Made by a program: the position numbers and the translations under genes. Shown in pieces: positions 21,240-54,060 of a stretch of DNA of 64,000 nt; position 1 is the first letter of the stretch; each line of letters starts with the position of its first letter. The notes beneath the pieces are model-generated. The model saw nothing but the letters and a program-made list of their open reading frames with translations, did not search any database and was not told where the DNA came from. The stretch is from Ephemerocybe angulata (lineage: Eukaryota; Basidiomycota; Agaricomycetes; Agaricales; Psathyrellaceae), in NCBI GenBank assembly GCA_013368325.1, contig JAACJK010000012.1:124001-188000 (forward strand). Direction: 5' to 3'.

Positions 21240-22465
21240 TGTGATGACGAGGGGTTAAGGTTAGAATCGCCGAAAACTCCTACGAAAAGTGATAGCACCT
21301 GGGAGCGGGATGGAATCAACCACAGGACCATGTCTAGAAGCTAGAGGAATCTCTGGGGAGAGAAGGATAGTGGAGCAGGTAGAGGAACGTGTTCCAACGT
21401 TATTATATTCAAGGTTCGAAAGAGTACGCTTCATCATCACAATAAACAGCCACAATTAGTCCCCTGGAGTCTGCCGTGGAGGCACGAGACACCCTATCCG
21501 ACATCCCGACAGGACGAAATACGATTAGCCCCAATCTGAGAAGAGGAAAAGGGAAAATTAGCTAAAATAGTGCAAGCTTAGACTCTATTCGCCGGCTGTT
21601 TGTCACGAACCTTACCTGTAGGATTGATGTAAACTAGAGACGGGTCGACTGTACGATAAAGAATGCATAACAAGTCCAATCATGCGACGTGATCGGCAGA
21701 TCAACTCAACGAACGTCGGACATGTCTGCCGAAGGATTCAAAGCAGAATATCCCGGACGCTTGTGGGAAGTGGACTGAGGCTATTCCTGCTACCTTTAGG
21801 TAGTGGGGCTTAGGTCGCCCTAGTCCAGATATCGACGTGCATGTGGGATTTTGTTGGTCGGAGTTAAATTATTCAATCTCCGATAAGCGCCTCGAGTCAA
21901 GTCGAGTCTCGCTTTTACGGAGCATCTTCATGGCATTTAGACAGGATTTTCGAGGCTCCACAGCTTCAGTAGCTATACTATACCCCAGTATTAACTAATC
22001 CCAAACAAAAAATACAGTGGTAATGAGAAACAGGCGATCCGAAGGCCAGAATTGCACTCCTTTAATGACCGTACAATATTGCCCATACTGTGCATGGACG
22101 CAAACGAACCTGGGGTAGCAGGTTGCGTCGCTAGCCGGTCTTACAGATGTTAATTTTTCTTAGGCCTAATTGCCCCCAAAATAACTCGGCGTGAAGTGTT
22201 GCTCAAATAGGCGCCTATTAAGCGCCGGCAGATTGACCTTTCTCAGGTATATACCCGTTCCCGAAACCTCTGTTATATTGATACAACGTGCGGTCAAACT
22301 TTTTCGCTTTCAGTGTCCAGGAACTAATGCACTCGGGTCAGTTTATATGAAGAAATAAGGACCACCTCACCCCAGAATTCATCAGGACAATCACCTAGGT
22401 TTGTTGAGAAAAATAACATTCAATAGGTAGGTACATTGCTCACTGTATTACGTGGCATCTACTGA
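21240..22465. other. Intergenic, no gene recognised
   Basis: AT-rich sequence with short frames only. It contains one copy of the 20-bp sequence also found downstream of the Helitron (see 22308-22327). Confidence 0.4.
22308..22327 (+). repeat. Exact 20-bp repeat, copy 1 (partner at 54041-54060)
   Basis: TTTCAGTGTCCAGGAACTAA occurs here and again about 450 bp downstream of the Helitron coding region. The flanking 20 bp upstream are also similar (GCGGTCAAACTTTTTCGC here, GTGGTAAACCTTTCCAC there). It ends in CTAA, which fits the CTRR rule for Helitron 3' ends, and here the next base is T as expected at a Helitron target. Confidence 0.55.
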
Positions 22466-24465: not shown

Positions 24466-26340
24466 CGGTCGGCTTCATGTGCATATACCAGACTCACGGG
24501 CACGTTTAGATGCCGTGAGTCTCACCCCAAGGCCATCGCTGCAGCTCGTGCCTTCCCAGACCAAACTCAGTTCGCGGTGGTCTGTGGGACAACGTCAGCG
24601 GGTATTTGCGCCCTGCGCGCACTCCTTGCACTCAGGAATCTCTTCTATGGGATGTCTGGGTGCAATATACGAGTGAGTAAATCGATTTCAAAGGCCAGTT
24701 GCCAGTGCTCACATCAATACTCGTCCACAGTGCAGTTGCTTGGAGGGACTTTGACTATGATCGAGTTTTTTGCTGTTGCGCGACCTGCTGAACATTCGAT
24801 CAGTGCCCTGAATCACAAAAAAGGCTGAATTGGTGTACTAACTGTTGGACTTGCAGCTTGCAGGAGTTCTATGTAATGTTGACACTCCTGAGACCTTGAG
24901 AGCTGCTTGAGAGCGGCGATTGTGTCACGTTTGCAGGCAGAGTTTGGTCGTCAGTTTATGGGCGGGGATTGGAGAGAAGGTACACTCTAAGGGTGGAATG
25001 GAAGGTGGTGGAGATGCATGGGAGGTCATTCTGAGAGAGAGAGACACCGTCCGATACAAGAGCAGCGAAGGGACGATGGGCGTCAAATGAAAGATGAAGC
25101 GTGGGACACGACTGCCCATTTAGCATAGAACATGAGCAGGACGTCATCAAAAGATGCTATTCGGATTCAGCCTTGCCTTCCGAGTCACCCTCGTCACCAT
25201 GGCCCATAGACCATCGTCGTCGAGTCTAGAGAATGGTTATCGATTTGACGGTTTGATGGCGATAATTGGGTGCGGAAAGGATGATTGGCAATGGGATGCA
25301 ATCCCCAGGGACTCTGGACGTAAGGGACGGCTGGTGAGCAATGGGATCCGACTCTCAGCGACCGTGACCGCAACAGTCAGCATATCCAAATACCCAAGCG
25401 CCAGAAGACGAAGAAGGCAGGGAGGAAGAGCCTCCTTGGAAGCGAGACGACCTGGTGAACCCTGATGCTTATGAGACGGCAAGCGCGTTGGGCAATGGAG
25501 AAGCTGGGGACTGTGAGTACGGCAAAAAGAGTCGAACTACATAATGCACTATATAATTTTGAATATACCTTATTTACTTCCGTACCCAAAGTTTAGATGC
25601 TGCGGTATCGAATCTCTTGCAAACCATGAAAATCAGGATCTTTCGGCTAAGTACACGAGTATACAAATAGCCTAAGAATCGCGACCAACTGAGAGTCAAT
25701 GGCCAGTCAGAAGGTTAAACGCGCTGTATAAGTACATTGGCTTAGCATATTTCCCCAAGACCTGGCCGCGCACTAGCCCAGAAGAGTGTAAAGCGAATTT
25801 ATCGCGTTTTTAGCATGATTTAATGAGATAAGCGCCCGTCAGTAAGCGGGCGGCAGCCATTCTAACGAATACCGTTGCGGTTCTCAAAGCCACCCTGTAT
25901 GGCTGTGGTATTGAGTCTAACGTCAAATCCAGCTCTAGAACTCTGTGCCGTGCACAATTATCTGCGACGAGAGCCTGAAGGTGTTTCTGGAAAGATGAGA
26001 AAGATAGGTGAGGAGCGGAATCGAAGAAATAGGCAAACTCCGTGTACCTTGTTACCCCAAGAAGATCTTTCGACCAGGGAGCTCTTCCCGATGTAACATA
26101 GTGATATGTCAACCCAGACATACTACACATGATAATCGTAAAATAGGAAGGCCGTAATCCAAAGGGAAGTTATATCTGTCAGTTGTACAACTCGATAATT
26201 GAAATTGAATAGATTCATAACATACGACTCTCACTACACATCAAGACTAACACGAGAGACAGTCATTAACCATACACAGATGCGCGATATTATACACTGG
26301 AAGGACTTCTTTCTCTGAATTTGACTAAATCCAAATGCAC
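24466..26340. other. No intact gene; possible scraps
   Basis: Around 24930-25150 (minus) the frame HLSFDAHRPFAALVSDGVSL looks protein-like, and at 25380-25500 (plus) an acidic stretch EDEEGREEEPPWKRDDLVNP with NPDAYETASALG looks coding. Neither extends. They may be more debris of the kind seen at 22.4-24.5 kb. From 25500 to 26340 I see nothing. Confidence 0.3.
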
Positions 26341-27963
26341 CTATACATACCAACTTCGGGAATCGTCGTAGTTCTGGTTCGGAACCACTCGAAGGTAGAC
26401 ATCTTTTCCCGATAGCAAACGGGTCTGCAAGGTCCCCTCGGAATATACGGCGTCATCCCTATACGATGCCGTTATCAGGCAAGGTGCTCCAACAGCCCTT
26501 CGTTGCAGAAACGAAACTTCCTCCTGGAGGGTTCGACTCGAGCGCCGGAGATTCAAGGCTTCGAAGTGGACAAGGGAGGGAAACTGCGGATGCTTCTTCG
26601 AACCGTCATCGAAGAATCCATCTACGGCCAGGTTATAGCTTGATACTCCCGTGCTATCGAGCACGAGATGCTGAAGTGCAGGTAAGACGGGTAATGGGAG
26701 GTAAATGGTGCTCTGGGTGGTCAACAACTCGCATATGCGCAGGCGTGTAAGGGTGGACTCTATCTTAGACTCCGTAATGAACGTGCCAATCCTCTTGACC
26801 GCGTCCCAAGTCTGCGTCACGGGAACAGAGAACTCAATGTCCAAGGTCCTAAGACGTGGTGCTCTGAGAATCTCCAGGATATGGACGTGACCTCGTCGAA
26901 GGCAAAGCTCATGGAGCCTACCCAACACCAACGGCGTATCCCGCAAAACTTCTGTCACAGGGTCCGTGAGTTCGGTGAAGGCATCAGATTCGTCCAGATC
27001 GAGGGTGAAGCTCTCTAGATTGATGCAATGCGCCAACAGTTCAGCGAGCTTGCTTCCACCCCAATCCCAACGAATGACGAAGACCTTGAGGCCATGGAGG
27101 ATTGGCACTGGGATATGCAACGAGCAAGCCAACGCAACTTCGTCGGATTCGAACGCCTTCTCTCGCGAAGGAAGGTTGAGGTGAAGTTCGGTGATGGGCG
27201 GTAAAAGGGTAAATATAGAGAAGTTGGGATCGTCCGAATCGTCCCACATATGGTGATCGTTGTCGACAAAGACCAGGGCAAAGCAGCGAAGTTTCATCCA
27301 GGATGTGCAAGATAGTGGTTGGCCTGCATCTTCTATTGCTGCAGCCCACTTCCTAAAGCACCCCGTGCTAGATACGTGTAGGGCGAATTCCTCGATTTGA
27401 AGGGGTAGTTGGGCCAATAGCTTCACGACCGTGGGTTGCGTCGATTCACATTGCTTACGAGGGTCATCGCAACCACATCGCGAGTCGTCTAGTGGCCGTT
27501 CAAGACGGACTGTCTTTGGAAGAGAGCCCGACCGAGAAAGCCAAACACGGGCCCTTTCGTATTCTGAATGATGGAGGTGGGGGTTGGTAGCCTTTAGAGT
27601 GCGGGCGCAGCCGCAAGGGTTGAAGACGAGTCCTTGCCACAAAGAATGTGTGTTGAGGGCCGCCCCCCGCCAGTCGCGAGAGACGAGGCTGACGGCCGCC
27701 ACGTCCGCCGGGGCATCTGGGTCACTTGGGAATAACGGTATCAGCGAGAATATCTCGCTAAGGATCTCCTGAGGAAGTCTCCGAGCAGGTGAGAGGACGA
27801 TACGACATTTCTTGAGCTCTGCTTCGAGCTGCTTCACCTTCCCAACGGCCTCTCCGATGGCGGTTAAGAGCGCATCGGCAACTTCACCCACATGGGCAAC
27901 GTCCAACTGACTGGGTACTTCGTTCGAACACAGAAGTTGCGATAGATTCCGAGGGAAGGCCAT
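26341..27963 (-). CDS. F-box-like protein (copy 2)
   Basis: A single-exon protein of 540 residues. I start it at ATG 27963 (MAFPRNLSQLL) because this matches the N-terminus of copy 1; the frame is open for five more codons upstream but without an ATG. An N-terminal coiled-coil helix (VGKVKQLEAELKKCRIV) precedes the F-box (SPARRLPQEILSEIFSLIPL, then VAAVSLVSRDWRGAALNTHS). The remainder is Leu-rich-repeat-like (LSYNLAV-type and LRTLDIEFSV-type strands) and contains a Cys-rich insertion (RCGCDDPRKQCE). The C-terminus is YLRVVPNQNYDDSRSWYV, closely matching copies 3 and 4. Inferred role: SCF substrate receptor. The target is unknown. Confidence 0.85.
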   Translation of the reverse strand: MAFPRNLSQLLCSNEVPSQLDVAHVGEVADALLTAIGEAVGKVKQLEAELKKCRIVLSPARRLPQEILSEIFSLIPLFPSDPDAPADVAAVSLVSRDWRGAALNTHSLWQGLVFNPCGCARTLKATNPHLHHSEYERARVWLSRSGSLPKTVRLERPLDDSRCGCDDPRKQCESTQPTVVKLLAQLPLQIEEFALHVSSTGCFRKWAAAIEDAGQPLSCTSWMKLRCFALVFVDNDHHMWDDSDDPNFSIFTLLPPITELHLNLPSREKAFESDEVALACSLHIPVPILHGLKVFVIRWDWGGSKLAELLAHCINLESFTLDLDESDAFTELTDPVTEVLRDTPLVLGRLHELCLRRGHVHILEILRAPRLRTLDIEFSVPVTQTWDAVKRIGTFITESKIESTLTRLRICELLTTQSTIYLPLPVLPALQHLVLDSTGVSSYNLAVDGFFDDGSKKHPQFPSLVHFEALNLRRSSRTLQEEVSFLQRRAVGAPCLITASYRDDAVYSEGTLQTRLLSGKDVYLRVVPNQNYDDSRSWYV

Positions 27964-28799
27964 TGTGAACGTTTTCAAAGCACAAAAACAGGGGAGAGGG
28001 TAGGACGATAAGGAGCAAACGACCGGGCAAAGGTGAAAAAGCTAGACAGTAGTTAGGATTAAACTGCAGTGTGAGGATAATGGAGAAACGAACCAAGGCA
28101 GGGGTAATCAGCGATAAGTTAACACAGACGTTCAATGTTGCATTAATATACCCTGCTCAAAGGAACACCCGCTTCGGCCGGTCTGTGCAACATGACATGT
28201 CGATTCACAGACGGAAAAGTTTACTGCAAAGATCCATTTTGCAGCCTCAAGGCCTAGAAGAGAAGCGGTAGGGCATATCTCCGAACGTGGCGTTTCGTAT
28301 CACAGATCTTAACGCCTCGAGGTCAACAATAGCGGTAGAGAGAGCAAACGGCGAGTCATCGCCCTCGACCTCGATATCATTGGCCTAATTTGGTACCGGT
28401 GAATTGCCGGCATATCAAAATTACTGTGATGGTAATTGGGTCAGGCACAGATCCTCAGAGCCTGGATGGCGGTCGAAGCCAGTCGATACAAGCTGCAGCG
28501 ACGAAACAGTCATGAACATAGGCAACATCTATAGATTTGCTGCAGATTATTGTAGGGCACTTAATAGGGGATTCAGATTTTTAAGGCGGGCACCTCATGT
28601 GAAGGGCGGCGTCTGGGCATGAATATGGGATACCCGTATGCCATGCTCAGAACATAGTGAGAACTAATAAAGAGATATGATTACAGGTAATAGCCTACAA
28701 AACAGTGCAGTGAACCTCATGTTACTCCATAATTGAGGGGAAACCGAATATTCATGAAATCCGGTGAGTACATATCTCCCCGTCCAACATGATGCTTGG
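27964..28799. other. Intergenic, no gene recognised
   Basis: Upstream region of F-box copy 2 and downstream region of the next minus-strand gene. No coding signal. Confidence 0.4.
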
Positions 28800-31676: not shown

Positions 31677-34600
31677 ATGTTCTTCAGCCAGTGAGTATAA
31701 AGAACCTCTAATATCAGTGACAATGACGCTCACCAACCCCCGATTAGCTATGAACTCGGAGGAAGACGAATTCAACTGCTTCATTCACAAACGAGGTAAG
31801 AGCAATTCATGACCATGTAATTGAACGATGGCTTAACCGACTTTCTCGAATGATAGACGGGTGAGCTTGACAGTCTCTGACGAGACAACGCTACAAGCAT
31901 TAGATGCTGACCATGCTACTCCAAGATCTATCGAAGAGTTCAGCCATGATAAAGTCGGTATTGATCTAATATGCGAGAGGTAGAATAGAGATACTAACCA
32001 ATAACATCTCGACCAAAGCTTGAGTCGAGATTATTGAAGGTACGATCCTCAGGAATCATCTTCGACGTAGAACCTTTGAACTGAAACATGCTTTACAGGC
32101 CATAGTTGGTCACAGGGCACAGGGACGAGAAGATGTAATGATTCGAGAGTAAGTCATAAAGATTACCAGACGAATACATAGTGCTTACTATAACCAACCC
32201 TCAGGATGGTTCGGGCAACGAAAGAGCGCATCGGCGATGCTATAGACAGCAAGGACATAGACGTAAGCTTCATCATAGGACACTACGACAAGAAAGCTCA
32301 CCGCAGACGCAGCCCTTAATGGCGATGCTGGCCGACTCAATGGATCATCTCGACTCGGCTTACGGTAACTTGGCGACCCATCTGGAACTTGCGTCTATGT
32401 ACAGAGAAGCCGAGCCAGATTTCAGCTCAGCTATGGAAGCTGCTAAGGGGACAGGACAAATATCAGCCCGCTTCCTAGACCTGGTCAACAGAAACAGGAA
32501 GGAACTGAACTCGATAATCGAATCCAACAGAGACGGTTATTTCACCTAGTAGGTCGGAATTCTTAAGGATCGATGCAATATGACTAACCATTCCCCCATG
32601 CAATAGCTCAGCCCTCAGATCGTTGCGAAAAAGGTATCTAAAGCAAAAAGGATGCACTCTAATTGAGAGGCCTCAACACCTATGGCTTCGAACGGCGTTG
32701 CAGATTTACCTATCGGACACGGAGGGTGTGAGAACGGCATACGATCTAATGTCGTCTTTCAAGTTTATTCCAGACTCTGCCATTCTTCTCTCCAGTGGCA
32801 CGTCCACTCCCGGGATGATAACCTCCTACCTGACCTCGTCTTATGGGGATCAAGAAGGGCTTTTCGCCTCCTTAGAGAGAGTGGCTAGATGCTCCTCAAC
32901 TGGGGGCAGCATCGGGATAGGGTTGCAAGCCACCCCTTTTAAAAGGTCAGTGCATGCATGCTATCAGGGTATGAGGTCTGACACGGTCGATGTCAGGTAT
33001 TCTGAACAGCAAGCACTCGCACCTGTTCTCGACCTATTCGAAGCCACTAGAAACGTTCTCGACCGAAGCCCCTATCCGAGTTCTGGGACCATGGCACTGT
33101 ATCTAGAGCCTTGGCACGCTGGCATCCAACTGTTTATACGCAAATGTCGAATGCATACCCGCAGCGAGGACGGTCCGCCAAGACCTGATTACGGATTAAT
33201 GATCAACGATCTATTGTATGTCGCATTAATACGCATGGTAAACCGGCTTGTTCACGATTACTAGCATGAAGAAAGTCGAAAGCAACAGCTCTTGGACCAC
33301 ATTCTGTCCTTCAGACGCATCCCGACTCACCGTATCGTACGGTCCTCAGTTCGAACGGGAATATCTCCGATTGGAACGCTCTGGCGTCGGAAAGTACACT
33401 GTTAGAGCTCGCGATCTCTGGAACGAAATCATGGATGCCCAGATCAAAACTGGAAGGCCTATTATACTCTTCAAGGACGCCTCCAACAGTAGGTGCCCCA
33501 GATAGTCGCCTTAAATGACCGGCTTACGAATGTGACCTTCAAGGGAAAAGCAACCACCGGCATTTGGGTGTCCTCACGCAATCCAATTCACTAGGAGGAA
33601 TGCTCCAATTTGCGGATCAGCAGGAAACGGCCACCTATCTCTCGGCGTCTGTGGTGTTATCAACGTTCGTAGACACTGATGGCCGCTTCGAATTCAGCGA
33701 GCTCGACAGGACGGTAAGAAACACTGTTGTTTCTTTGAACCACGTCCTCGCGCAATCCTACTACCCAGATAACTCAGCGAAGGCCTCAGCATACAGACAC
33801 AGGGCTATAACGGTTGCAGTACAAGGGTTAGCGGACGCCTTGGTGATGATGGGACTCCCGTACGAATCGGACGAGGCTCAGACGCTCAACGCCGCGATCG
33901 CCGAAACTGTATATCATTCAGCCACTGACGAAAGCTGCAACCTGATACGTTTCCATGGATCGCATCCCAATTTCGAAAGAAGCCCAGCCGCATCTGGGTG
34001 GCTTCAGATAGACTATTGGGATAATCCGCGCATCTCCGGACGCTACGATTTCAACCTTTTGCGGGAGAAAGTCACCAAAGGAATTTGCAATAGCTTAGTC
34101 ACAGGATATGCGCCCTCAAATAGCTCGATCGAACTAGCCAGTTGCTCAGAGGGATGCGAGCCGTTATCATAGTAAATTCCTCTTTCACTGTCAACGGTGC
34201 GCTGGCTGACAACCCGCTTTACCGCACTAGCCTTCTTTCCACACAGAAAACCGGCAGCAACGATCGATTCCTTGTGTCCAAACACCTAGTGAAAACTTTG
34301 GAGAACATAGGAATATGGTCTGAAGATATGCTAAACCAAATAGCTTGCAACGAAGGTGAATACGTGCAGTGTCTACGCTGAGTACTTTATTAACCTCGCC
34401 CCTTGCAGGATCTCTTCAACGAATCGATGGCATACCCGACAAAGTACGAGAAATATACAAAACGGCCTGGGAGATCAGCCCCAATAGGCTCGTCAGACTG
34501 GCGATTGACAGAGGCCCCTTTATCTGCCAAAGCCAAAGCTTGAACATGTACATGAATGTCCCTTCCATTTCAAAACTGGTACGATCTTGGATCATCTACA

Positions 34601-34845
34601 ACAATTAACAAACGCGCTAACTAGGACACACACACCTCAATCCCGTTCAGTCCACCCTAATCTTCGATGCTTGGAAGGCGGGATTGAAAACCGGACTTTG
34701 CAGCTTACGATCTAGAATTGTCTCGCTCAAAGTAGCTGGCAAGAAGGTTCGAGAAGTGAAGAAGTTCGATCAAGAGGATGTCGAGCTGGACGGGACTGGG
34801 TCTACAAACGACCCATACATAATACGCAACATAATCGTCACTTGA
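31677..34845 (+). CDS. Ribonucleotide reductase large-subunit paralogue lacking catalytic residues, 13 exons
   Basis: Thirteen exons (31677-31690, 31748-31795, 31857-31953, 32019-32039, 32099-32148, 32205-32262, 32307-32548, 32607-33215, 33265-33488, 33544-34171, 34231-34355, 34409-34578, 34651-34845) join through twelve GT-AG introns into exactly 827 codons. Class I R1 landmarks align in order: ATP-cone remnant (FSHDKLESRL), IERPQHLWLRTAL, GGSIGIGL, ALYLEPWH, MKKVESNSSWTTFCPSDA, FKDASNRKSN, AVQGLADAL, QSQSLNMYMN, AWKAGLKTGL. The chemistry is gone: the disulfide Cys of SSCF is Tyr (ITSYL, about residue 249), the NLCTE loop is NSLGG (467, losing thiyl Cys and Glu), the Cys of AVCNLAS is Tyr (ATYLSAS, 483), the radical-transfer YY is CS (GLCSL, 779-780), and the tail lacks the CxxxxC pair. 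Intact frame and splicing argue for a retained non-catalytic protein; its role is unknown. Known R1 makes dNDPs in the cytosol with R2. Confidence 0.85.
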
Positions 34846-40906: not shown

Positions 40907-41631
40907 GATTTGAGGAGGGGAGATCATCAAGATTTGGAGTTTGGAGAAGAGATAAAAAAAGATAGTCCAGAGAGTTCAGAAAAAGGGGAGAAAGATGAAG
41001 ATAGTTATGATATGGGGAAATGCACAGTGAAGAGTGGAGAGAAAGCTGCGAGATGAGATGGATAGCTCGATAATGACCTTATAGACTCGATGCCTGGCGT
41101 ATTTGATGGAACGAGTCAATATCGAGTGTAAATGGGTAAAAAAGTGTTATTTGACTTACCGATCCTTGGGTCCTGAGGGTTCATCCAATTGGATATGGAT
41201 TCTCCACCTCGGGTATCGATCTGCCTTGAGATTAACTGAATCAGTCGTATATAGGCAAAAAAAAAAGGGAAAGGGAACGCTTACGACCAAATGGCTCGGG
41301 AGAACACTATCTAGGGAACACGTGAATTGGCGCTACTGGCATCCATTTGCGTACGTTCCTCCATTCGAGTTTCCAAGATCCCAGATGCGCAAATGAATTG
41401 TGGAGAGCGAGCCTTGAGCAGATGAGGCGCCGCTAAGACATCGCTAGATGATACAGAGCGCATGACGGCTATAAGAAGAAGACAAGGTGGTTAGGTAGTT
41501 AACCGGAATAGACAGAGCCAAGCGCCACCACCGGTAACTCAAGGAACTCCCACGCTTCGCCCACCCACTTCCACTGGCACAAAGTTCTCACTCCTATATT
41601 GTCACGTCGCGCACCATTACACGTTGCTCAT
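40907..41631. promoter_or_regulatory. Shared upstream region of two divergent F-box genes
   Basis: The 725 bp between the start codons of copies 3 and 4 must contain both promoters. The side next to copy 3 is purine-rich on the plus strand (GAGAAGATAAAAAAAGATAG), and there is a poly-A run near 41259. No clear TATA box can be assigned to either gene. Confidence 0.4.
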
Positions 41632-43263
41632 ATGGCGTCCTCGAAGACCCTTTCTGACTACATCAACTCGAATAACCCTCCTCACCCAGAGGCAATAAAG
41701 TTTGCTCGTTCCGCTATCGACGACATATCAACTCAAATCGGCGTTTTGATGAACGAAGTGGAGTTCCTGGAATCCGAGAGGAAAAAAATTCGCGCAGTGG
41801 TATCCCCCATCCGAGTGATGCCTTCGGAGCTGCTGAGCGAATTCTTTTTGCTGGCCGCTTTCGCCGAGAAAAACGCGGCTCGGAGAAGAACTGTCGGTGC
41901 TTTGCAAAGGGTATGTCGTCGGTGGCGCGACGTTGCCCTTGAAACGCACGGGTTATGGACTGAAGCCGTTGTATCATCTGTATCGCACAGCCAGTCTGGA
42001 TACACAAGTCCTTCTTCCCTCAGCGATCAGCGACCTTCAGACGAAGAGCCTTCCCATGAAGAGGAATTCAAAATGATCACTTCATGGTTGAGCCGAGCGG
42101 CGTTACTACCGAAGTCGATTGGATACAGCGTTACGAGAACCTGTCTTTGCGTTGAAGGAAATGAATGTATCGCTCTCTCACCAACGCTGGACAAACTAAT
42201 AAAACATGGTCCCTTACTCGATCACATATCCCTCACAATGCCCACCGCTGCATGCTTTCGGTCATGGGTTCAATCCCTTGTCAAGGAAGAAGAATCCCCA
42301 CCCTCATCCTGGCACTCCCTTCGTTCCCTAAAGTTGGCCCTTATGGACGGAGACTTACAATTCTGGAACGATGCGAGCGACCCTACCCGAAGCATTTTCG
42401 CTCTACTTCCTACAGTAAAATCCCTGGGGCTCTGCCTCCCAACAAGTGCACACGATCTCCCGGCTCTCCTCGTCCGCCCTATTCACATTCCTGACCCCAT
42501 ACTCGCCGGTTTGACCGTCTTGAGCGTCAAGTGGGATTGGGCAGGAAGTTCTCTATTCAAGTTACTCTCATCTTGCGCACGTTTGGAAATACTCGCCGTC
42601 GATCTCGGAAACGGCGAACCATTCGACACAGACGACTCCACGCACACGCTATCTAGGCTTAGAGTGGCGCCTCTTGTTCTTTCGTCACTACAGGAGTTTT
42701 ATCTCAGAGATGGAAGCTTCAGAATTTTGGAGTTCGTCCGGTTCCCCGCGCTCTCCGTACTCGATATGGAATTGGACGTCGACAGAGAGGAAACGATTAC
42801 AGCATCAAGTGCGCTCGGCTCCTTCCTCACCTCGTCCAACTTAGTGGGAATGATCAAGAATATCCGCCTGTGTGGTTTGATCGGTACAGAAGGCATTGTA
42901 ACCCTTTCACTCCCGGTACTCACATCTTTGCGCGTCCTAGAGCTGGACAGTTCGTGGGTCAGCACATATCGTTTCATGAACAGTCAGGATGAACGTAAAT
43001 CCCAGCAAAATATCTTCCCTTCGCTCCTGCGTCTGAATCTACTTAACCTTCATTATTATTTCGAATCCCTTTCCTGCGAAATGGCGTTCCTTCGCGCTCG
43101 TCAAAATTCCTCCCCATGTCTAATCACCGTTTCTTATGCCGAGGAGCTTCGTCTCACCGAGGCAAGGCTGGCACGTCGCCTTCGTTCAGTAGGAAACCAA
43201 AGCCTTTCGCTGCGAATGATACCTCCTTCCGATTACGAATCGGAGAGATCCTGGATTCAATAG
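41632..43263 (+). CDS. F-box-like protein (copy 4)
   Basis: A single-exon protein of 543 residues from ATG 41632 (MASSKTLSDY); upstream in-frame codons lack an ATG. A coiled-coil helix (IDDISTQIGVLMNEVEFLES) precedes the F-box (SPIRVMPSELLSEFFLLAAF, then ALQRVCRRWRDVALETHGLW). The insert RTCLCVEGNECIALSPTLDK corresponds to the Cys-bearing insert of the paralogues, and Leu-rich-repeat-like strands follow (LRVLELDSSWVS). It ends LSLRMIPPSDYESERSWIQ. It is head to head with copy 3, but the two are no more alike than any other pair by eye, so a recent inverted duplication is not supported. Inferred role: SCF substrate receptor. Confidence 0.85.
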   Translation: MASSKTLSDYINSNNPPHPEAIKFARSAIDDISTQIGVLMNEVEFLESERKKIRAVVSPIRVMPSELLSEFFLLAAFAEKNAARRRTVGALQRVCRRWRDVALETHGLWTEAVVSSVSHSQSGYTSPSSLSDQRPSDEEPSHEEEFKMITSWLSRAALLPKSIGYSVTRTCLCVEGNECIALSPTLDKLIKHGPLLDHISLTMPTAACFRSWVQSLVKEEESPPSSWHSLRSLKLALMDGDLQFWNDASDPTRSIFALLPTVKSLGLCLPTSAHDLPALLVRPIHIPDPILAGLTVLSVKWDWAGSSLFKLLSSCARLEILAVDLGNGEPFDTDDSTHTLSRLRVAPLVLSSLQEFYLRDGSFRILEFVRFPALSVLDMELDVDREETITASSALGSFLTSSNLVGMIKNIRLCGLIGTEGIVTLSLPVLTSLRVLELDSSWVSTYRFMNSQDERKSQQNIFPSLLRLNLLNLHYYFESLSCEMAFLRARQNSSPCLITVSYAEELRLTEARLARRLRSVGNQSLSLRMIPPSDYESERSWIQ

Positions 43264-45884: not shown

Positions 45885-46768
45885 CTAATACTGAGACCCT
45901 GTGGAAAACGCGTAACATTGCGACTTCAGCCTCCTGGGAAAAGGTAACACCGTGTCCGAAAGGCAAAGAGAAGTGGACAAGGGGGCTAGGTCAACGGAAC
46001 TGCCCGCCGTACTCTCCTCGGAAACGGAAGACTCGTCTGATCCAAGAGGATGACATGCGCTTCCCTCCTCCGAAAGCTTCTTCCAATACATTTCGAGTGG
46101 ATACGATGGATATTCTGCCCGGTCTTGCGAGAAATCGGTTGATACAGCCTGACTGAACCGCTCCAGAGAATCTCCGTCCACAGAGATGTCCCAATCCAAC
46201 CGCCCCAACATCTCCCGCACCATGGTATTCAAGGCTTCAACACTGAACAGACCTCCTGACATATCCCGCCACGACCTGGACCGATACGTATTGTCGCAGA
46301 GGTAACCGGACGCAATGATAAGGGCGGTAGTGAACAGCCTATGACCGGATACCATCATCGGGGATGCTTGATGCTTGAGTCTTGTGAGCAACATGAGCGC
46401 CATGATGATCACGGCCGAGTTGAATCTAGAAAGGTAGAGGATTTGGGCTATGTAGTGCAAGAGCCCCGTCCGTGATCGCTTTCGGTCGGGTGATGAATCG
46501 GGACAGTTGAAGAGATGTTTAAGGTATCTGTAGCACAAACGCGACAATCCCTCAAGCCCATAGAAAGGAGGCGGTTGCGAAGGAGCTGGAACCAACTACC
46601 AAACGAAAGATTAGATTAGATTATCCGGTCTATAAAGCAACGCCGGAAATCAAAAGGCTGACTCACTCCCTGACGGGGCGGCTTGGGAGCCTTGTTCCTG
46701 CCTCGAACAAGATGCTTCTTTTCGTCCGCCTTAGAGTCTGCATTCTTCTGAACCGACCCTTGTCTCAT
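45885..46768 (-). CDS. Cyclin, Pho80/Pcl-type
   Basis: Exon 1 (46768-46667, MRQGSVQKNADSKADEKK) and exon 2 (46595-45885) join in phase through a GT-AG intron to give 270 residues. The cyclin-box fold lies at about residues 60-170: IAQILYLSRFNSAVIIMALM, LTRLKHQ, HRLFTTALIIASGYLCDNTY and SWRDMSGGLFSVEALNTMVR with LDWDISV. The DNTY..RSW..MSG..L..LN motif is typical of the Pho80/Pcl cyclin family (PF08613), which activates the Pho85-type kinase in phosphate, glycogen and cell-cycle control. The C-terminal 70 residues are Ser-rich and probably disordered. The first exon is basic and Pro-rich. The phosphate-transporter relic at 11.7 kb is too far away to imply a link. I am confident of the cyclin fold and less so of the exact subfamily. 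Confidence 0.8.
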
Positions 46769-47445: not shown

Positions 47446-49400
47446 ATGATAGAGGAAGGTAAGTCTAATTGCCTCATCTTCCCTCAGCCACTCTAACTTC
47501 CACAGAAATATTGGCCCGACAGGCTGTTCTAAGTCCGGACGGAAAGTCAATCGTTATGATGCCATTAAAGCTCAACTCGGAAGCGCTACGAAGAAGCTAT
47601 GATTTTAATGGCATCGTTCAACGCTTGGTGGCTGGGGACGATAGGATCGCGAACTCAGCATACTTGCTCCTCAGCATGCCCCTTAAAACCATGGCAACCA
47701 AATACCCACATCTAACGGTCGACGATGCCAGGATGCTTGCCCGGTTTCACTCGGTAAACATCCTCTCTAGGACCAGGTCCCAAGAGGTACTAGCGGCGAT
47801 GAAGGAGCATACCTGCACCCCCATATGTGCGGGATTTTTAGTGGCATTCAAGGAGAGAAGTAGCCAACGTCCCCAGACGGACCCTTGGAGAAACTCGGCC
47901 GTACAACCTCAATGGAGCATGGGGAGCCAGAGCACGCATACCGACCTCGAGGATCCTACAGTGTCGACATTTACCCAGCTAGGCGCCAATCGTCACCAAT
48001 TCTGTGTGGATCGAGCATTGAGAGCTGGAAATACGAGCACGGAGATGAGTCACCAAGAGGATGAAGCCACGGCTATGCGGGCTAGATGCAATCTCGCTCA
48101 CCCCAATAGAGAGAGCTATAGAGGGCATATACCGACGCCAACCAGTAGACCAGTTCAGCCGGCAGTACCGACACCCGGATCAAACACGGATCATCTCAAG
48201 CCTATTTCGGCAGCGCACACCCTGAGCATAATCAAAGAATGGCAAAAAGCTATGGACCCGACGATGTTCATCAGACAACCATGCGCGTCCTGCAGCAGCT
48301 TGTTGAACCCAAAAGAACTGACCCACGTAGAATCGACCACGCTCGACCTATCCCTCCTCAGAAATGACTGCCTGCCTGCTTCAGTGCACCCCACATCGTA
48401 CAATTTTCTAGCCTACGACCGGGCAATATTGGATCCCAAAGGCCTTGAAAACACGAACGAACTTGGTCGCATACGCCTCTGCAATGTCTGCCTCACAGAC
48501 TTGCGCAAAAGGAAAATGCCGAAACTGGCACTGGCGAATTGGCTATACTACGCGCGGGATCGTCTTCCAGCCGAGGTTAAGCGTTCATTCGAGTCCATGT
48601 CGGTATTCGAAAAGGCTTTGATATGCAGGGTACGCACCAACAGCCTTCTATGCAGGTTCACTGGAGTAGACGACGACACCACGGATGCTCAGAACCTCTT
48701 TATCCGTGGTAAGAGACACATACGAGGTAACATCATGTCCACTCCGCTGGACGCCCACAAGCTTCACACTATCCTCCCACCATCTCCATCCGAGGTAGCC
48801 GACACCATCTGCGCATTGATAGTATCGGCAACTCCACCCACGAAACGCACAATAGCTTCTCTCAAACCGATATTGGTCAGGAAGTCTAAGATCAAGCTAC
48901 TGCTGGAATTCCTTATCGACAACAATCCCAATTATCGCCGATGCGAATCGTTCAGGGGTTTTAGCGCTGTATTCTTGAACAATCTCTTCCAGGGCCCTGA
49001 AGACGTAGGCGTTCCTGCATCTGTCAACATCGGGCACGTACCGATCAACCACGCAGTCGATTCGCTGACAGAAGACTATGTCGGGAGGCTAGATGGACTT
49101 GACGGACTATTCATGGAGAACGTTTCATACACGGAAGGCGATCACTCTCCGGAGAGCTACAGAAATATGTCGCTCTTAGCGATTCAGAGATGCAAAGAAG
49201 GAAGGCCGTTTCTGCAGGCGAAAGCTGGATCTACTCCTGTACCCGATATCAACAATCCAGCTTGGCTCAGTTGGGCACACCCCAATGCGGACCCCTTCGG
49301 AATAGGAGGTTTTCACGAACCCCGAAGAAGTAGGCCGATAGGGATGCTCCAGCAGCTCAGGCATCTACTCACCGTTCGCGACCCCTTTTTTCGAAAATGA
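47446..49400 (+). CDS. Helitron protein, N-terminal part (DUF6570-like)
   Basis: A 13-nt first exon (MIEE) joins through a GT-AG intron (47459-47505) to a long exon reading EILARQAVLSPDGKSIVMM. The middle part holds a Cys pair (PCASCSSLLNPKELTH) and a second one about 90 residues later (LCNVCLTDLRKRKMPKLALA, then NWLYYARD). This is the layout of the DUF6570-like region found at the N-terminus of fungal Helitron proteins, probably a zinc-binding module. The frame ends at TGA 49398-49400 just after a run of six T (GACCCCTTTTTTCGAAAATGA). With five T the frame would continue as RDPFFENDPELAFDVYNVV and run straight into the Rep domain. The two parts are therefore one gene broken by a one-base expansion. 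Confidence 0.85.
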
Positions 49401-49401
49401 C

Positions 49402-52400
49402 CCAGAGCTGGCGTTCGACGTATACAACGTCGTGCGCAAAGGGTCTGTCAACACCTCCATGCGATTCACTGTGCCTTTTACAACATACGACAAAGTGTCA
49501 AAAGATATAGCGTCACTAGACAAGGTGCAGATAACGGCTCTCAGAGAACGCTTCCAACGAGATCCGACATACGTGCCCTCGACCGAGGGCGAACTCGCGA
49601 TAACCCGAGTTCTGGCTTCTATATCGCCTATCGCGCGAGATATCCCAGGGACCGTTTCCCAGAAAATCAAAATGAGGAACGAAATACGAGCCATTATCAG
49701 TCAACGTGGATCTCCTACCCTTTTCGTAACTATCAACCCTTCCGACTATCATCATCCCATTGTCACCGTTCTCGCCAAACGCCCATTGACCAAAGACCAT
49801 CTTGACGATCTCGACAATCTTACGTCTTCGGACAGAGCCAGAACAGCACTCAAGCATCCGGTAGCATGCGCCCAATTCTTCGATGTCATAATGCGAAACT
49901 TCATATCCATCGTTCTCCGATGCGACAAGAAAAAAAAGTCCCCAGGAATCTTCGGCCAGTGCGAATGCTACTACGGAACGGTGGAGACTCAGGGCCGAGG
50001 CAGTCTCCACTGCCACATGCTCATATGGCTGAAAAACCATCTTCCACCAGAGAAGCTCGCCAGCACACTAAAGGAATCCCCAGAATACCGTGCGGCCTTG
50101 ATCAAATGGCTGGACTCTATCATGGACTCTGGCTTCCTCGGAACACGTAGCAACGGGCTCGAAGATGAAGCTGCAAATGATGCACCTCACCCTCGAGGCT
50201 CTTCCGATCCCCATCCTGCCTGTGTACGCGAGCCGAAGATAGCAGAGATGCCTCTGGACAAGTTCCAGCCTGAGATGCTTGAACATGTGGACGCGCTCCT
50301 CCGGCGATTCAACTGGCACCATCACACCGGAACCTGCTGGAAGTACTTAAAACCAAGAGAGCCCAGGACTCCAGAGAACTGTCGATTCGGAATGGATGGT
50401 ACCACTACCTCTCTCACGTCTGTAGACGAGAGAGAGGGCTCGATCAGCATTCGTCGACGGCACCCTAGGATGACAACTTACAACCCGGTCGTTACTTTCC
50501 TTCTCAAGTGCAACACTGACATCAAATTCATCGGCTCTGGGACGGACGCAAAAGCCTTCATGTACTACGTAACGGATTATATCACGAAGGCCCCACTGTC
50601 GATGCATGCCGGTCTTACGGCTCTATGTTATGCCATCCAGCAAGCCGAAGCCAGAAAAGCGCTCAGTCTCAATCAAGTCAATGACCCCCGGAGAACCATG
50701 ACGATAGCGATAAACAGCATGCTCGGACGTCAAGAGATATCTCATCCCCAAGTGATGAGCTACATCCTCGGAGGAGGTGAGAACTACAGTAGCGAAATCT
50801 TCCAAACTATAAACTGGGGTGAAGTCCAACGGTACGTATCCAAAGCATCCGATTTCGTGGGGGAACCGACCACACCAGGCCCGCCTACACCGCCATGGTC
50901 GAGAAGAACGGACCCCAATAGCGACATACGGGTGGCCATAAGTACTGACGGAACCCGACTAAGCGCTTCTAACCAGCTGCTCGACTACATATATCGTCCC
51001 AATGAAGAACCGTTCGACTCCATGAATCTCTACTCCTTCGTCGCGTCTACTAGAAAAATGCTTCGCCCGAAAACTCGAGCTCCCGAATCAACTACACGTT
51101 TTCCACCTGGCACATTCTCCTCAGAAGACCATCCCCAATTCTACAGTCACACGGTAGGACTCAGGAGAGTCCGCGCGGTACCGGTACTACTAGGCCCCAA
51201 GATAGCAAGGAAAGACGGTTGCGCGCAAGAGCAAGACTCTTGGGGAAAGGATATGTGCATCCTCTTCTGCCCGTGGCGAAGTCCCATGGCTCTACGAGAT
51301 CCACAATGCGGTTGGTATGAAAGTGCCTTACAGGTTATTCAGAACCTGTCCCATGAAGACAAGATCATAGCTTCCAATATGACGCTGATTTCGGAGGGGA
51401 GGCAAGCCCGTGACGAACGCCCAAGACATAAACAGAAAGGACCTTCCGCGGGGGCCATGATGGAAATGGAATCCATCCCCGACCTAGCGACACACATTAT
51501 TCCGGGTGTTACTAACGTATACGCCCTCTCTCCACTCGAAGAGCCAGAGGATACGGCTATCGCCTCCGCTTTTCGAGTGGACCCTTACCTCGACAACCTT
51601 CTAGGGGACGACAGGGTGGACGCAGTCCAAATGTGCTACCACGCGCCCCCGGCGACGCCCACGGAGGTTAACAGCACCCCCGAGGAAATGGACCCTGAAG
51701 CACTGGACAACCAGAGGAAATTCATGTCGAATGCGAGGTTCGCATCAAAGAAGGCCCCAAGTACCGACAAGAAAGGATCGCGACGAGCTAAGAAGAAATC
51801 AAGAGCACTAGACAGCGAATCCGCTCAGCCTCAAACGGAAATCACCTCACTCACGATAGCTTCCCAGACTCGCACAAACTCACGCAGACAAGAAAAAGGC
51901 ACGGATTTTGCTCAAGCGCTGGCATACCAACGAGGGCTTAGAGGCAACCCAGAACAGCTTCGAGCCTTCCTGAGCATAGCCGAACATGTCCTGAATGGTG
52001 GACCCCAGCTACTGATGTACGTAGGCGGATCAGGGGGAACGGGAAAGTCCTATTTGATTGAAACAATTGTCGATTTCTTTGAAGGCTTGGGTAGGATGGA
52101 TGAGATAAAATTGGGGGCCTTCACCGGTATCGCCGCTTCCCTCATAGGAGGACACACCCTGCATTCTTTGCTCGGAATGGGGGTGAACTCGAAAAAACCT
52201 GGGACGGCGGCTAAAAGACTGTTCGACGAATGGAGGAAAGTGACATATTTCGTTATCGACGAAGTCTCGATGATAAGCGCCCAATTCCTGGCGGCCGCGT
52301 CCAGCAAGTTGCGCACTGCTAAAGGCGACGATGCCCGGGCTAGTCAGAAGCCGTTTGGAGGAATCAACATGATATTCTTAGGCGATTTCTTTCAGCTATC

Positions 52401-53586
52401 ACCACCTACACAACCCAGCCTATTCTCCTACAAGCTCGTCAGAAAACCATCCTTCCTGGAAGCTAGAAACAACGGTGGGATAGACGCCATTGCTGGTGCC
52501 TATCTGTGGAGACAGGTCTCGACAGTCGTTATCCTCAAGCAGTCTAAAAGGCACGCCGACGACCATATCATGGCCGAAATCCTCCACAGGATCAGGGGGC
52601 GAACCTGTATCGACCAACACAATCAACCTGTCATGATATCAGGAAGATCAGTCCTCGACCACATCAGAAGCCGAGACATTGCCTATGTAGCGTCCACCGA
52701 CCCTAATTCGCTAAAGGACTTCCAGGACGCCCCGATCATAGTGGGAAACAAGGACATTCGAGACTCTTTTAATTCCGCCCTTCTGAAGGCTCACGCGCAT
52801 CGAACCTCCGTAGTGCCCAGCATTTACTACTCCATAGACTCCATCAAGGGCCAACGGATAACCGGAATAGCTGCTCTCAGCCTTTGGAACCTTCCGTCAA
52901 GGCCGACGAAGGATAGCCTGGGTCAGCTTCCCATGTTTATAGGGATGAAAGTGATGGTAACCGAGAACATCTCGGTAACATACAAGATCGTGAATGGGTC
53001 GGAAGGCGTAATCACTAACATCGTCCACTCAACCGACGATTCCGGACGGCGATATGCAGAAGCAGTATATATCAAACTGGCCGGTGCCAAGAGGAACGCT
53101 ATCATCGCGCCAGGCGTGCAGCCAGGAATCGTCCCAATATTTCCCACAAACACCTACATCCCTTACACAGTGCGACTAGGACGAACCGTTGCCAAATCCT
53201 TCTCTCGCAGACAAATCCCCCTCATACCAGCCTACTCTTACACTGACTACAAAAGTCAAGGTCGAACGTTGCAGCGAGTCGTAGTAGATCTGACCTCATC
53301 CCAGGGACAAGGAGTATATGTCATGCTTTCGCGAGTGACAAGTCTGAAAGGACTTCTGGTGCTAAGATGGTTCCCTCAAACAAAAATCTTGCAAGACATG
53401 TCGGGCGAGCTCAGAGAGGAGACGGAAAGGCTGGATACCCTAGACGACGAGAGCGCCATAAACTTCTACGAAGAACATCTACTAGAAGCCAAAGAAGCGG
53501 ATGATATATACATCGAACGCACCGGGGCACTCGCCAACGAAGAGACACCCTTAGTGAACGAAGACGTCGAGATGGAAATAGTCTAA
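49402..53586 (+). CDS. Helitron Rep/helicase, C-terminal part
   Basis: About 1,390 residues after the frameshift. The Rep nuclease carries its three motifs: TLFVTINPSDYHHP (about residue 100 counting from 49432), the metal-binding GRGSLHCHMLIWL (188, two His) and the two-tyrosine YYVTDYITK (about 377, YxxxYxxK). The Pif1-type helicase follows: Walker A GGSGGTGKS (864), Walker B VIDEVSMIS (941), FLGDFFQLSPP, and the late motifs YKSQGRTLQRVVVDL (about 1271) and VYVMLSRVTSLKGL. All catalytic residues are present, so the protein would be active but for the frameshift upstream. It moves DNA by rolling-circle-type transposition in the nucleus. The lack of other damage means the copy is young, or that the T-run difference is a sequencing error. 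Confidence 0.9.
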   Translation, partial: PELAFDVYNVVRKGSVNTSMRFTVPFTTYDKVSKDIASLDKVQITALRERFQRDPTYVPSTEGELAITRVLASISPIARDIPGTVSQKIKMRNEIRAIISQRGSPTLFVTINPSDYHHPIVTVLAKRPLTKDHLDDLDNLTSSDRARTALKHPVACAQFFDVIMRNFISIVLRCDKKKKSPGIFGQCECYYGTVETQGRGSLHCHMLIWLKNHLPPEKLASTLKESPEYRAALIKWLDSIMDSGFLGTRSNGLEDEAANDAPHPRGSSDPHPACVREPKIAEMPLDKFQPEMLEHVDALLRRFNWHHHTGTCWKYLKPREPRTPENCRFGMDGTTTSLTSVDEREGSISIRRRHPRMTTYNPVVTFLLKCNTDIKFIGSGTDAKAFMYYVTDYITKAPLSMHAGLTALCYAIQQAEARKALSLNQVNDPRRTMTIAINSMLGRQEISHPQVMSYILGGGENYSSEIFQTINWGEVQRYVSKASDFVGEPTTPGPPTPPWSRRTDPNSDIRVAISTDGTRLSASNQLLDYIYRPNEEPFDSMNLYSFVASTRKMLRPKTRAPESTTRFPPGTFSSEDHPQFYSHTVGLRRVRAVPVLLGPKIARKDGCAQEQDSWGKDMCILFCPWRSPMALRDPQCGWYESALQVIQNLSHEDKIIASNMTLISEGRQARDERPRHKQKGPSAGAMMEMESIPDLATHIIPGVTNVYALSPLEEPEDTAIASAFRVDPYLDNLLGDDRVDAVQMCYHAPPATPTEVNSTPEEMDPEALDNQRKFMSNARFASKKAPSTDKKGSRRAKKKSRALDSESAQPQTEITSLTIASQTRTNSRRQEKGTDFAQALAYQRGLRGNPEQLRAFLSIAEHVLNGGPQLLMYVGGSGGTGKSYLIETIVDFFEGLGRMDEIKLGAFTGIAASLIGGHTLHSLLGMGVNSKKPGTAAKRLFDEWRKVTYFVIDEVSMISAQFLAAASSKLRTAKGDDARASQKPFGGINMIFLGDFFQLSPPTQPSLFSYKLVRKPSFLEARNNGGIDAIAGAYLWRQVSTVVILKQSKRHADDHIMAEILHRIRGRTCIDQHNQPVMISGRSVLDHIRSRDIAYVASTDPNSLKDFQDAPIIVGNKDIRDSFNSALLKAHAHRTSVVPSIYYSIDSIKGQRITGIAALSLWNLPSRPTKDSLGQLPMFIGMKVMVTENISVTYKIVNGSEGVITNIVHSTDDSGRRYAEAVYIKLAGAKRNAIIAPGVQPGIVPIFPTNTYIPYTVRLGRTVAKSFSRRQIPLIPAYSYTDYKSQGRTLQRVVVDLTSSQGQGVYVMLSRVTSLKGLLVLRWFPQTKILQDMSGELREETERLDTLDDESAINFYEEHLLEAKEADDIYIERTGALANEETPLVNEDVEMEIV

Positions 53587-53984: not shown

Positions 53985-54040
53985 CGATCTGCATTCTCCC
54001 CCAAATCGAAAGTGGCCCAATGTGTGGTAAACCTTTCCAC

Positions 54041-54060
54041 TTTCAGTGTCCAGGAACTAA
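54041..54060 (+). repeat. Exact 20-bp repeat, copy 2 (partner at 22308-22327)
   Basis: Same 20 bases as at 22308, preceded by similar sequence. It ends in CTAA and is followed by G here. Confidence 0.55.

Follow-up and report, generated by a model that had tools for sequence, protein, structure and literature searches.

A ribonucleotide reductase homologue without catalytic residues and its association with a lineage of large rolling-circle transposons in Ephemerocybe angulata

The window analyzed here is a stretch of 64,000 nucleotides from the agaric Ephemerocybe angulata (Psathyrellaceae), corresponding to C154:124001-188000 of a 58.7-Mb assembly in 232 contigs. It contains a gene for a homologue of the large subunit (R1) of class I ribonucleotide reductase (RNR), which we consider, by a modest balance of the evidence, to be the inactive R1 of a lineage of giant rolling-circle elements. 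Besides the replicase-helicase RepHel, this lineage carries R1 and, in most members, the small reductase subunit R2 and a cyclin, and R1 would have turned into a useful non-catalytic subunit. Gene trees and intron positions demonstrate at the sequence level that the element lineage acquired a class I R1 bearing fungal-type introns before its members diverged, and that this R1 was co-inherited with RepHel and mostly also with an R2-like gene and a cyclin. Alignments and substitution rates likewise establish that R1 repeatedly lost its catalytic residues and that purifying selection continued afterwards. Throughout, C-numbers denote contigs of the E. angulata assembly, L-numbers loci and P-numbers proteins. 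The features on which the argument depends are:

31750..34845, plus strand: R1-like gene, 14 exons and 13 introns, about 782 residues, predicted by spliced alignment
31796-31856, 31861-31925, 31954-32018, 32040-32098, 32149-32204, 32263-32306 and 32549-32606, plus strand: predicted introns 1-7 of the R1-like gene
32946-32996, 33216-33264, 33489-33543, 34172-34230, 34356-34408 and 34579-34650, plus strand: predicted introns 8-13 of the R1-like gene
45888..46595, minus strand: cyclin gene between the R1-like gene and RepHel, PF00134 (Cyclin_N) 35 bits, cut-off 23
47469..53583, plus strand: RepHel (DUF6570, Helitron_like_N and PIF1 helicase by Pfam) in overlapping frames of 643 and 1414 residues
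54029..54056, plus strand: element terminus on the RepHel side, AAACCTTTCCACTTTCAGTGTCCAGGAA, a short hairpin, placed by the end of homology between C50 and C130 and in other elements

The exons of the R1-like gene were joined by a spliced aligner written for this analysis and gave neither a frameshift nor a stop codon. The protein could be aligned over 776 residues up to position 34824, with six more residues before the TGA; the small 5' exons are based solely on similarity to the relative P0002. Single exons matched the all-alpha domain (PF00317, 46.8 bits) and the barrel domain (PF02867, 137.5 bits) of R1 in Pfam. The intact-frame R1 homologue described in a first-pass annotation of this DNA is thereby borne out, with a revised gene model: 13 exons, 826 residues and a start at 31677 had been proposed, in place of the 14 exons, about 782 residues and start at 31750 found here. 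The public model of the gene, D9611_012771 (P0003), comprises only 465 residues and is a fragment, so that the intact frame could be overlooked in surveys of databases.

In the alignment to the complete host R1 encoded on C65, the host shows C218, N, C428, E, C443, Y and Y in the catalytic columns (yeast numbering), and the window protein S, N, L, G and Y in the first five. Cys218 is thus replaced by Ser, the thiyl Cys by Leu, the catalytic Glu by Gly and the redox Cys443 by Tyr. The relay Tyr pair of the host corresponds to CS (within GLCSLRSR), and no C-terminal CxxC was found at the end of the window protein, whereas the host R1 ends in CLMC. Judged by its sequence, the gene is a class I R1 homologue with intact frame and without catalytic residues, not a functional R1, because the thiyl Cys, the Glu and the redox Cys pair are gone. 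The earlier statement that every aligned catalytic residue is replaced holds for these residues and for the Tyr pair; it is slightly too strong, since the Asn of NLCTE is retained. Loss of the Cys pair in the tail was also seen correctly, the eukaryotic motif being CxxC and not CxxxxC as quoted.

The ATP-cone remnant reported in the first pass is legible in the window protein. Its relative P0002 scores 19.1 bits with a Pfam cut-off of 25.8, and among eight scanned paralogue proteins, some with truncated annotated N-termini, three gave sub-threshold matches (17-20 bits, same cut-off) and five gave none; the ATP cone of an ordinary fungal R1 scores 53 bits. For the relative P0001, which is 64% identical to the window protein, a structure was predicted with a mean local distance difference test score (pLDDT) of 82 and a template modelling score (pTM) of 0.85. 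The predicted fold resembles human and yeast R1 with template modelling (TM) scores of 0.87-0.89, which we take as supporting evidence only, because functional R1s were in the alignment behind the model.

Genome-wide, PF02867 gave 66 exon matches. Grouped by locus, these amount to 24, of which one is the host R1 and 23 are R1-like. The true R1 expected elsewhere in the genome is the complete gene on C65, a contig on which no RepHel is listed. Full models were obtained for 18 of the 23 R1-like loci, the remaining five being copies of the C76 gene with 98.6-100% identity; once near-identical copies are set aside, 16 lineages are left. Across 7-8 introns, 15 of the 18 models show no frameshift or stop, with defects confined to L010 and L016 (one frameshift each) and L018 (three frameshifts and one stop). 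Catalytic residues are lost in 15 of the 16 lineages, and the thiyl Cys is gone in 12 of the 18 models. Only C117b (L013), whose public protein P0050 ends in CLAC, retains every checked R1 residue, and it is the one lineage in which both R1 and R2 are complete. The members of the window clade (window, C133, C11, P0001 and P0002, the last two probably from another assembly) have NSLG, Ser218 and the lost Cys443 in common, which indicates a loss before these members split. The C76 and C18 R1s also have identical replacements in common.

Introns occur at host columns and in host phase at columns 396 and 701 (both phase 2) in all 18 models, at 471 (phase 1) in 16, at 284 (phase 2) in 15 and at 83 (phase 0) in nine, the other nine models starting after this last column. 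Three more introns that are not in the host model are common to 18, 17 and 18 of the 18 models. The matching columns and phases fit a single capture of a fungal genomic R1, and the host-type intron positions together with the RepHel partner speak against a viral, including a giant-virus, origin of these genes. Similar to class I R1s such as yeast Rnr1 and human RRM1, the window gene and its relatives exhibit the known domain order, the fold predicted for P0001 and intron positions in common with the host R1; the window protein differs from them by the absence of the thiyl Cys, the Glu, the redox Cys pair, the relay Tyr pair and the CxxC and by its degenerate ATP cone. Searches with two inactive R1s returned E. 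angulata first and then distant R1s (about 8000 candidates scored in each). The search with the complete C117b R1 found paralogues in Coprinellus aureogranulatus, Candolleomyces aberdarensis and Coprinopsis marcescibilis among the best 120 of 7998 candidates. Three of these R1 paralogues from related genera, P0051 and P0055 (C. aureogranulatus) and P0064 (C. marcescibilis), keep all checked catalytic residues; in P0054 (C. aberdarensis) the Asn differs and the C-terminal part is absent.

The RepHel of the window matches Helitron_like_N with 104.5 bits and PIF1 with 84.5 bits in Pfam, that is, the HUH Rep and the PIF1-type helicase that characterize a RepHel of the Helitron superfamily, and is 49-58% identical to L040. 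Helitron_like_N has 106 matches genome-wide, and 41 Rep domains were collected and compared; the HxH pair is present in 40 of 40 aligned domains (the 229-residue C17 row excluded). Of the Rep domains compared, 21 from RNR loci sit in one clade of 22 rows (support 99/99), referred to below as the RNR clade; its 22nd row is L093, of which L091 is the sister. R1-like genes lie 10-54 kb from an RNR-clade RepHel at 17 of 23 loci. With the host gene counted, this corresponds to 17 of 24 loci within 55 kb, for a chance expectation of at most 0.95. The seven R1 loci without a nearby RNR-clade RepHel are the host R1, the five C76 copies, which are located on short contigs or at contig ends, and one C16b copy separated from the end of its contig by about 15 kb. 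According to the match strands, R1 points toward RepHel in the window, C133, C11, C117b, C216, C153 and C16a and away from it in the other ten elements, all of which except C117a form one clade.

The trees of R1 and RepHel share 11 of 13 splits for 16 elements, indicating that the genes travelled together; they disagree in four splits with supports of 67-82. For 12 elements, the trees of R2 and RepHel have 7 of 9 splits in common and those of R2 and R1 8 of 9. In 10,000 label permutations the maxima were 4 (R1-RepHel), 3 (R2-RepHel) and 4 (R2-R1), and none was as high as observed. Agreement is looser between the distance matrices (r 0.47, 0.73 and 0.54; p 0.0002, 0.0004 and 0.0001), as expected from unequal rates.

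An R2-like match is found 3.2-4.0 kb from RepHel in 14 of the 21 RNR-clade elements and farther off on the same contig in C16a (a fragment at 8.8 kb), C216 (at 23 kb) and C17 (at 42 kb). Six of the 14 R2 models built from the clade (C117b, C130, C189, C76, C114 and C16b) retain the full set of seven metal and radical residues, the C189 R2 being a frameshifted near-copy of that of C130. In C76, C114, C130 and C16b such a complete R2, to all appearance still capable of carrying a radical, stands beside a dead R1, a pairing that fits an R2 serving another R1. RepHel elements with R2 only were also observed, at C98:169755-170576 (L035) and C223:567001-567822 (L034). Their R2 is 67% identical to the host R2, none of the seven metal and radical residues is lost in the C98 model, and the RepHels, about 7 kb away, belong to a different clade; by appearance, these elements acquired R2 separately. 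At C146:36605-39148 (L032, L033), two ordinary R2 genes of the host are arranged head to head.

Cyclin_N has 30 matches in the genome. Of these, 18 have an RNR-clade RepHel no more than 25 kb away (expectation 0.54) and 15 no more than 6 kb away (expectation 0.13). A cyclin within 24 kb is found in 16 of the 21 elements. The cyclin of the C50 element scores 32.1 bits with a cut-off of 23. A sequence relative of the cyclin at a useful E-value was not found in the PDB.

Evidence for a defined element end comes from the near-identical C50 and C130 copies (99.9%), in which homology ends at one point, after ...CAAGTGTCCAGGAA. In the window this terminus at 54056 is located 473 bases past the end of the RepHel frame. 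The exact 16-mer TTTCAGTGTCCAGGAA is listed at 30 places, with about 0.03 calculated by chance; with two mismatches allowed, 108 places compare with 54 for the reversed control, and this larger set is noisy. At least 15 of the 21 elements have a same-strand copy of the terminus at 3.7-8.5 kb beyond the Rep domain, and 14 aligned termini have their end in common and differ in the flanks beyond it. The terminal 29 bases form a weak hairpin (-4.3 kcal/mol). Canonical Helitron1 elements have the 3' end CTRR. As the aligned termini end in GGAA instead, we class the element as a RepHel-encoding member of the Helitron superfamily and not as a canonical Helitron1. It spans at least 27.7 kb (26344-54056). 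Other exact termini, among them C23:71629 and C86:885064, have no RNR-clade RepHel within 12 kb among the matches listed; the last 46 bases of the C23 terminus are the same as in the C18 element, in other flanking DNA. These are probably non-autonomous or partial copies.

Selection on the R1-like genes was estimated from the ratio of non-synonymous to synonymous substitution rates (dN/dS). By pairwise maximum likelihood, inactive sister pairs of R1 gave 0.218 (C76-C18), 0.173 (C140-C220), 0.215 (C114-C130) and 0.119 (window-C133), with likelihood-ratio statistics of 198-375 against dN/dS = 1. In comparison, R2 gave 0.056-0.160 (three pairs) and RepHel 0.044-0.068 (four pairs). The Nei-Gojobori method (NG86) resulted in 0.15-0.18 for R1 in three unsaturated pairs, dS being infinite in 8 of 13 pairs, and a codon model put omega at 0.161 in a set of nine R1s and at 0.110 in a set of three. 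The saturated pairs C16a-C117b (t 28) and C117a-C153 (t 7.7) were excluded, and the spliced aligner, which favours a conserved reading, may lower dN/dS somewhat. By these estimates the inactive R1s are under purifying selection. The suggestion that the window gene is no ordinary pseudogene therefore stands: against its C133 relative the statistic is 375, and the ratio of 0.119 rejects a pseudogene under relaxed selection. The gene is also a non-catalytic paralogue, as had been proposed. A single retained host paralogue, however, is ruled out by the 23 R1-like loci and the RepHel-congruent tree, the gene representing one of 16 RepHel-associated lineages.

A rolling-circle replicase accompanied by a cyclin and the two reductase subunits suggests an element making its own DNA-replicating conditions, one that may push cells toward a DNA-making state. 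In the ancestral kit, R1 and R2 would make deoxyribonucleoside triphosphates, raising their supply during rolling-circle replication, and the cyclin would favour cell-cycle entry and an S-phase-like state. Where R1 is dead, the protein would most likely be a structural or regulatory subunit that enters R1 oligomers or holds R2. The active R1 of the host could thereby escape its normal control, and the degenerate ATP cone would perhaps help in this escape. A related case is yeast Rnr4, an R2 without iron ligands. It likewise is a non-catalytic RNR subunit kept for assembly, but it is a small subunit and a host gene, whereas here a large subunit on mobile DNA is concerned. Only tentatively do we propose the full scheme, in which giant rolling-circle transposons carry an S-phase kit of cyclin, R1 and R2 and the R1 pseudoenzyme deregulates the host ribonucleotide reductase, feeding their own replication.

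Several observations weigh against a mobile lineage that keeps R1 as a useful subunit. No R2 match is present on the contig for C133, C11, C68 and the window (4 of 21), and tblastn with 17 R2 models found none in the window (best E 0.13). R2 has decayed in several lineages, with Tyr177 (mouse numbering) changed to Phe in C220, C140 and C18 and heavy loss in C153 and C117a. No cyclin match lies within 25 kb in five of the 21 elements, and no R1 or R2 match was seen beside the L093 RepHel in the RNR clade. With 0.12-0.22, omega of R1 is two to five times that of RepHel (0.04-0.07), pointing towards weaker constraint on R1. The other (5') end of the element was not reached, since on the R1 side C73 and C23 remained homologous up to the end of the sequence compared; repeats inside the window gave no candidate for it, and an empty insertion site was not found. 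Finally, the window RepHel has an apparent frameshift near 49383 in comparison to C117b, either a true break or an assembly error. Together with the lack of a detectable R2, this means that the window copy may be immobile.

This last point can be extended to the assumption that the lineage is described correctly and the window copy is a stranded relic, whose R1 is intact because it broke free recently. Such a relic is compatible with our preferred explanation, and we regard it as possible but rather doubtful: the RepHel frameshift and the missing R2 match would be accounted for, yet the frameshift is possibly an assembly error, and the sister elements C133 and C11, also without R2 match, have RepHel frames of 2038 residues, so that loss of R2 alone is no mark of a relic.

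The main rival explanation is an anti-defence decoy, in which the dead R1 binds and neutralizes a host factor attacking the element, e.g., its single-stranded DNA intermediate. A precedent exists in herpesviruses. According to the available part of one source, the betaherpesvirus R1 is inactive but kept and blocks host signalling, and alpha- and gammaherpesvirus R1s inhibit APOBEC3 (PMC11772975). The betaherpesvirus proteins UL45, M45 and U28 resemble the present case in that selfish DNA retains an enzymatically inactive R1, as far as that part of the source describes them; they differ in being viral and without R2, whereas here a transposable element lineage is concerned, mostly with R2-like genes and cyclins. 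A scaffold retained with substrate and radical sites lost would suit a decoy, and the window element, having no R2, would fit it better. The R2-like genes, however, co-evolve with R1, several with the full cofactor set, and a pure decoy needs none; we therefore consider this explanation unlikely.

Still less probable is a passenger R1, captured once and drifting without function, with the open frames left over. Catalytic losses in 15 of 16 lineages, frameshifts in three of 18 models (L010, L016 and L018, the last with a stop), an R1 omega above that of RepHel and two near-identical R1 pairs, whose ratios of 0.44 and 0.61 are based on a very small number of changes, would be in accordance with drift. 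Neutrality is rejected in all four inactive pairs (statistics 198-375), 15 of 18 models are without frameshift or stop across 7-8 introns, and the introns hold position and phase, which makes such a passenger improbable. A gene family owned by the host and multiplied by segmental duplication, in which the RepHel genes would be bystanders, could explain intron-bearing fungal-type genes in large blocks whose far end is unproven, but is hardly credible in view of the R1/RepHel tree agreement, the constant distance between RepHel and R2 in 14 of 21 elements and the common RepHel-side terminus with unrelated flanks.

Further features of the window are:

22296..22323, plus strand: second terminus copy, upstream of the element and on the same strand as the terminus at 54029..54056
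26344..28041, minus strand: F-box-like gene, PF12937 36 bits
28904..31129, minus strand: gene A, divergent from the R1-like gene, matched by tblastn next to R1-like genes in L041, L012, L017, L009, L029 and L014
39320..40975, minus strand: F-box-like gene between the R1-like gene and RepHel, PF12937 28.8 bits, cut-off 24.3
41512..43260, plus strand: open frame whose F-box-like match stays below the threshold, PF12937 22.3 bits, cut-off 24.3

The second terminus copy may belong to a tandem or nested element; a terminus variant of C130 (518897) is similarly placed beyond the C130 R1. Three open reading frames of gene A gave no Pfam match. Within the outer F-box-like gene, window positions 26338-27828 exhibit 69% DNA identity to C133:305196-306683 in the sister element. 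A MARCHF6_C frame at 54531-55670 (61.6 bits), 475 bases beyond the terminus, is probably a flanking host gene. In the C50 element, an open frame with a DSGAT motif (L094:3312-4316, retropepsin-like by eye) is located between cyclin and terminus. A search of the window against Rfam gave no match.

Comparable described elements are the Pleurotus Helitrons HELPO1: in the available part of the source they have a RepHel, with the Helitron N and PIF1 domains, and carry additional genes to which no known function is assigned (PMC4289320). The present elements share this layout and differ, as far as that text goes, by full-length R1, R2 and cyclin genes co-inherited over at least 20-50 kb. For comparison, Helitron lengths of 6-14 kb in fungi and up to 39 kb in maize are given in the accessible part of a review (PMC6431247). 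Part of a third source reports a Helitron in a plant, located inside or close to what is probably an R1 gene (PMC8495827). No description of RNR on Helitrons was found in the accessible texts of the literature searched, which leaves most subscription journals outside, and the available part of the Pleurotus text does not mention RNR (PMC4289320).

In the usual view, transposons depend on nucleotides and a cell-cycle state borrowed from their host. If the explanation preferred here is true, a transposon lineage with both reductase subunits and a cyclin would be a transposable element equipped like a large DNA virus. Capture of full-length genes by Helitrons has been termed exceptionally rare in the part of the source available (PMC6431247), and the E. 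angulata elements run counter to this view. The repeated loss of catalysis under purifying selection further provides about 15 natural lineages within one genome for asking what role a non-catalytic R1 may have.

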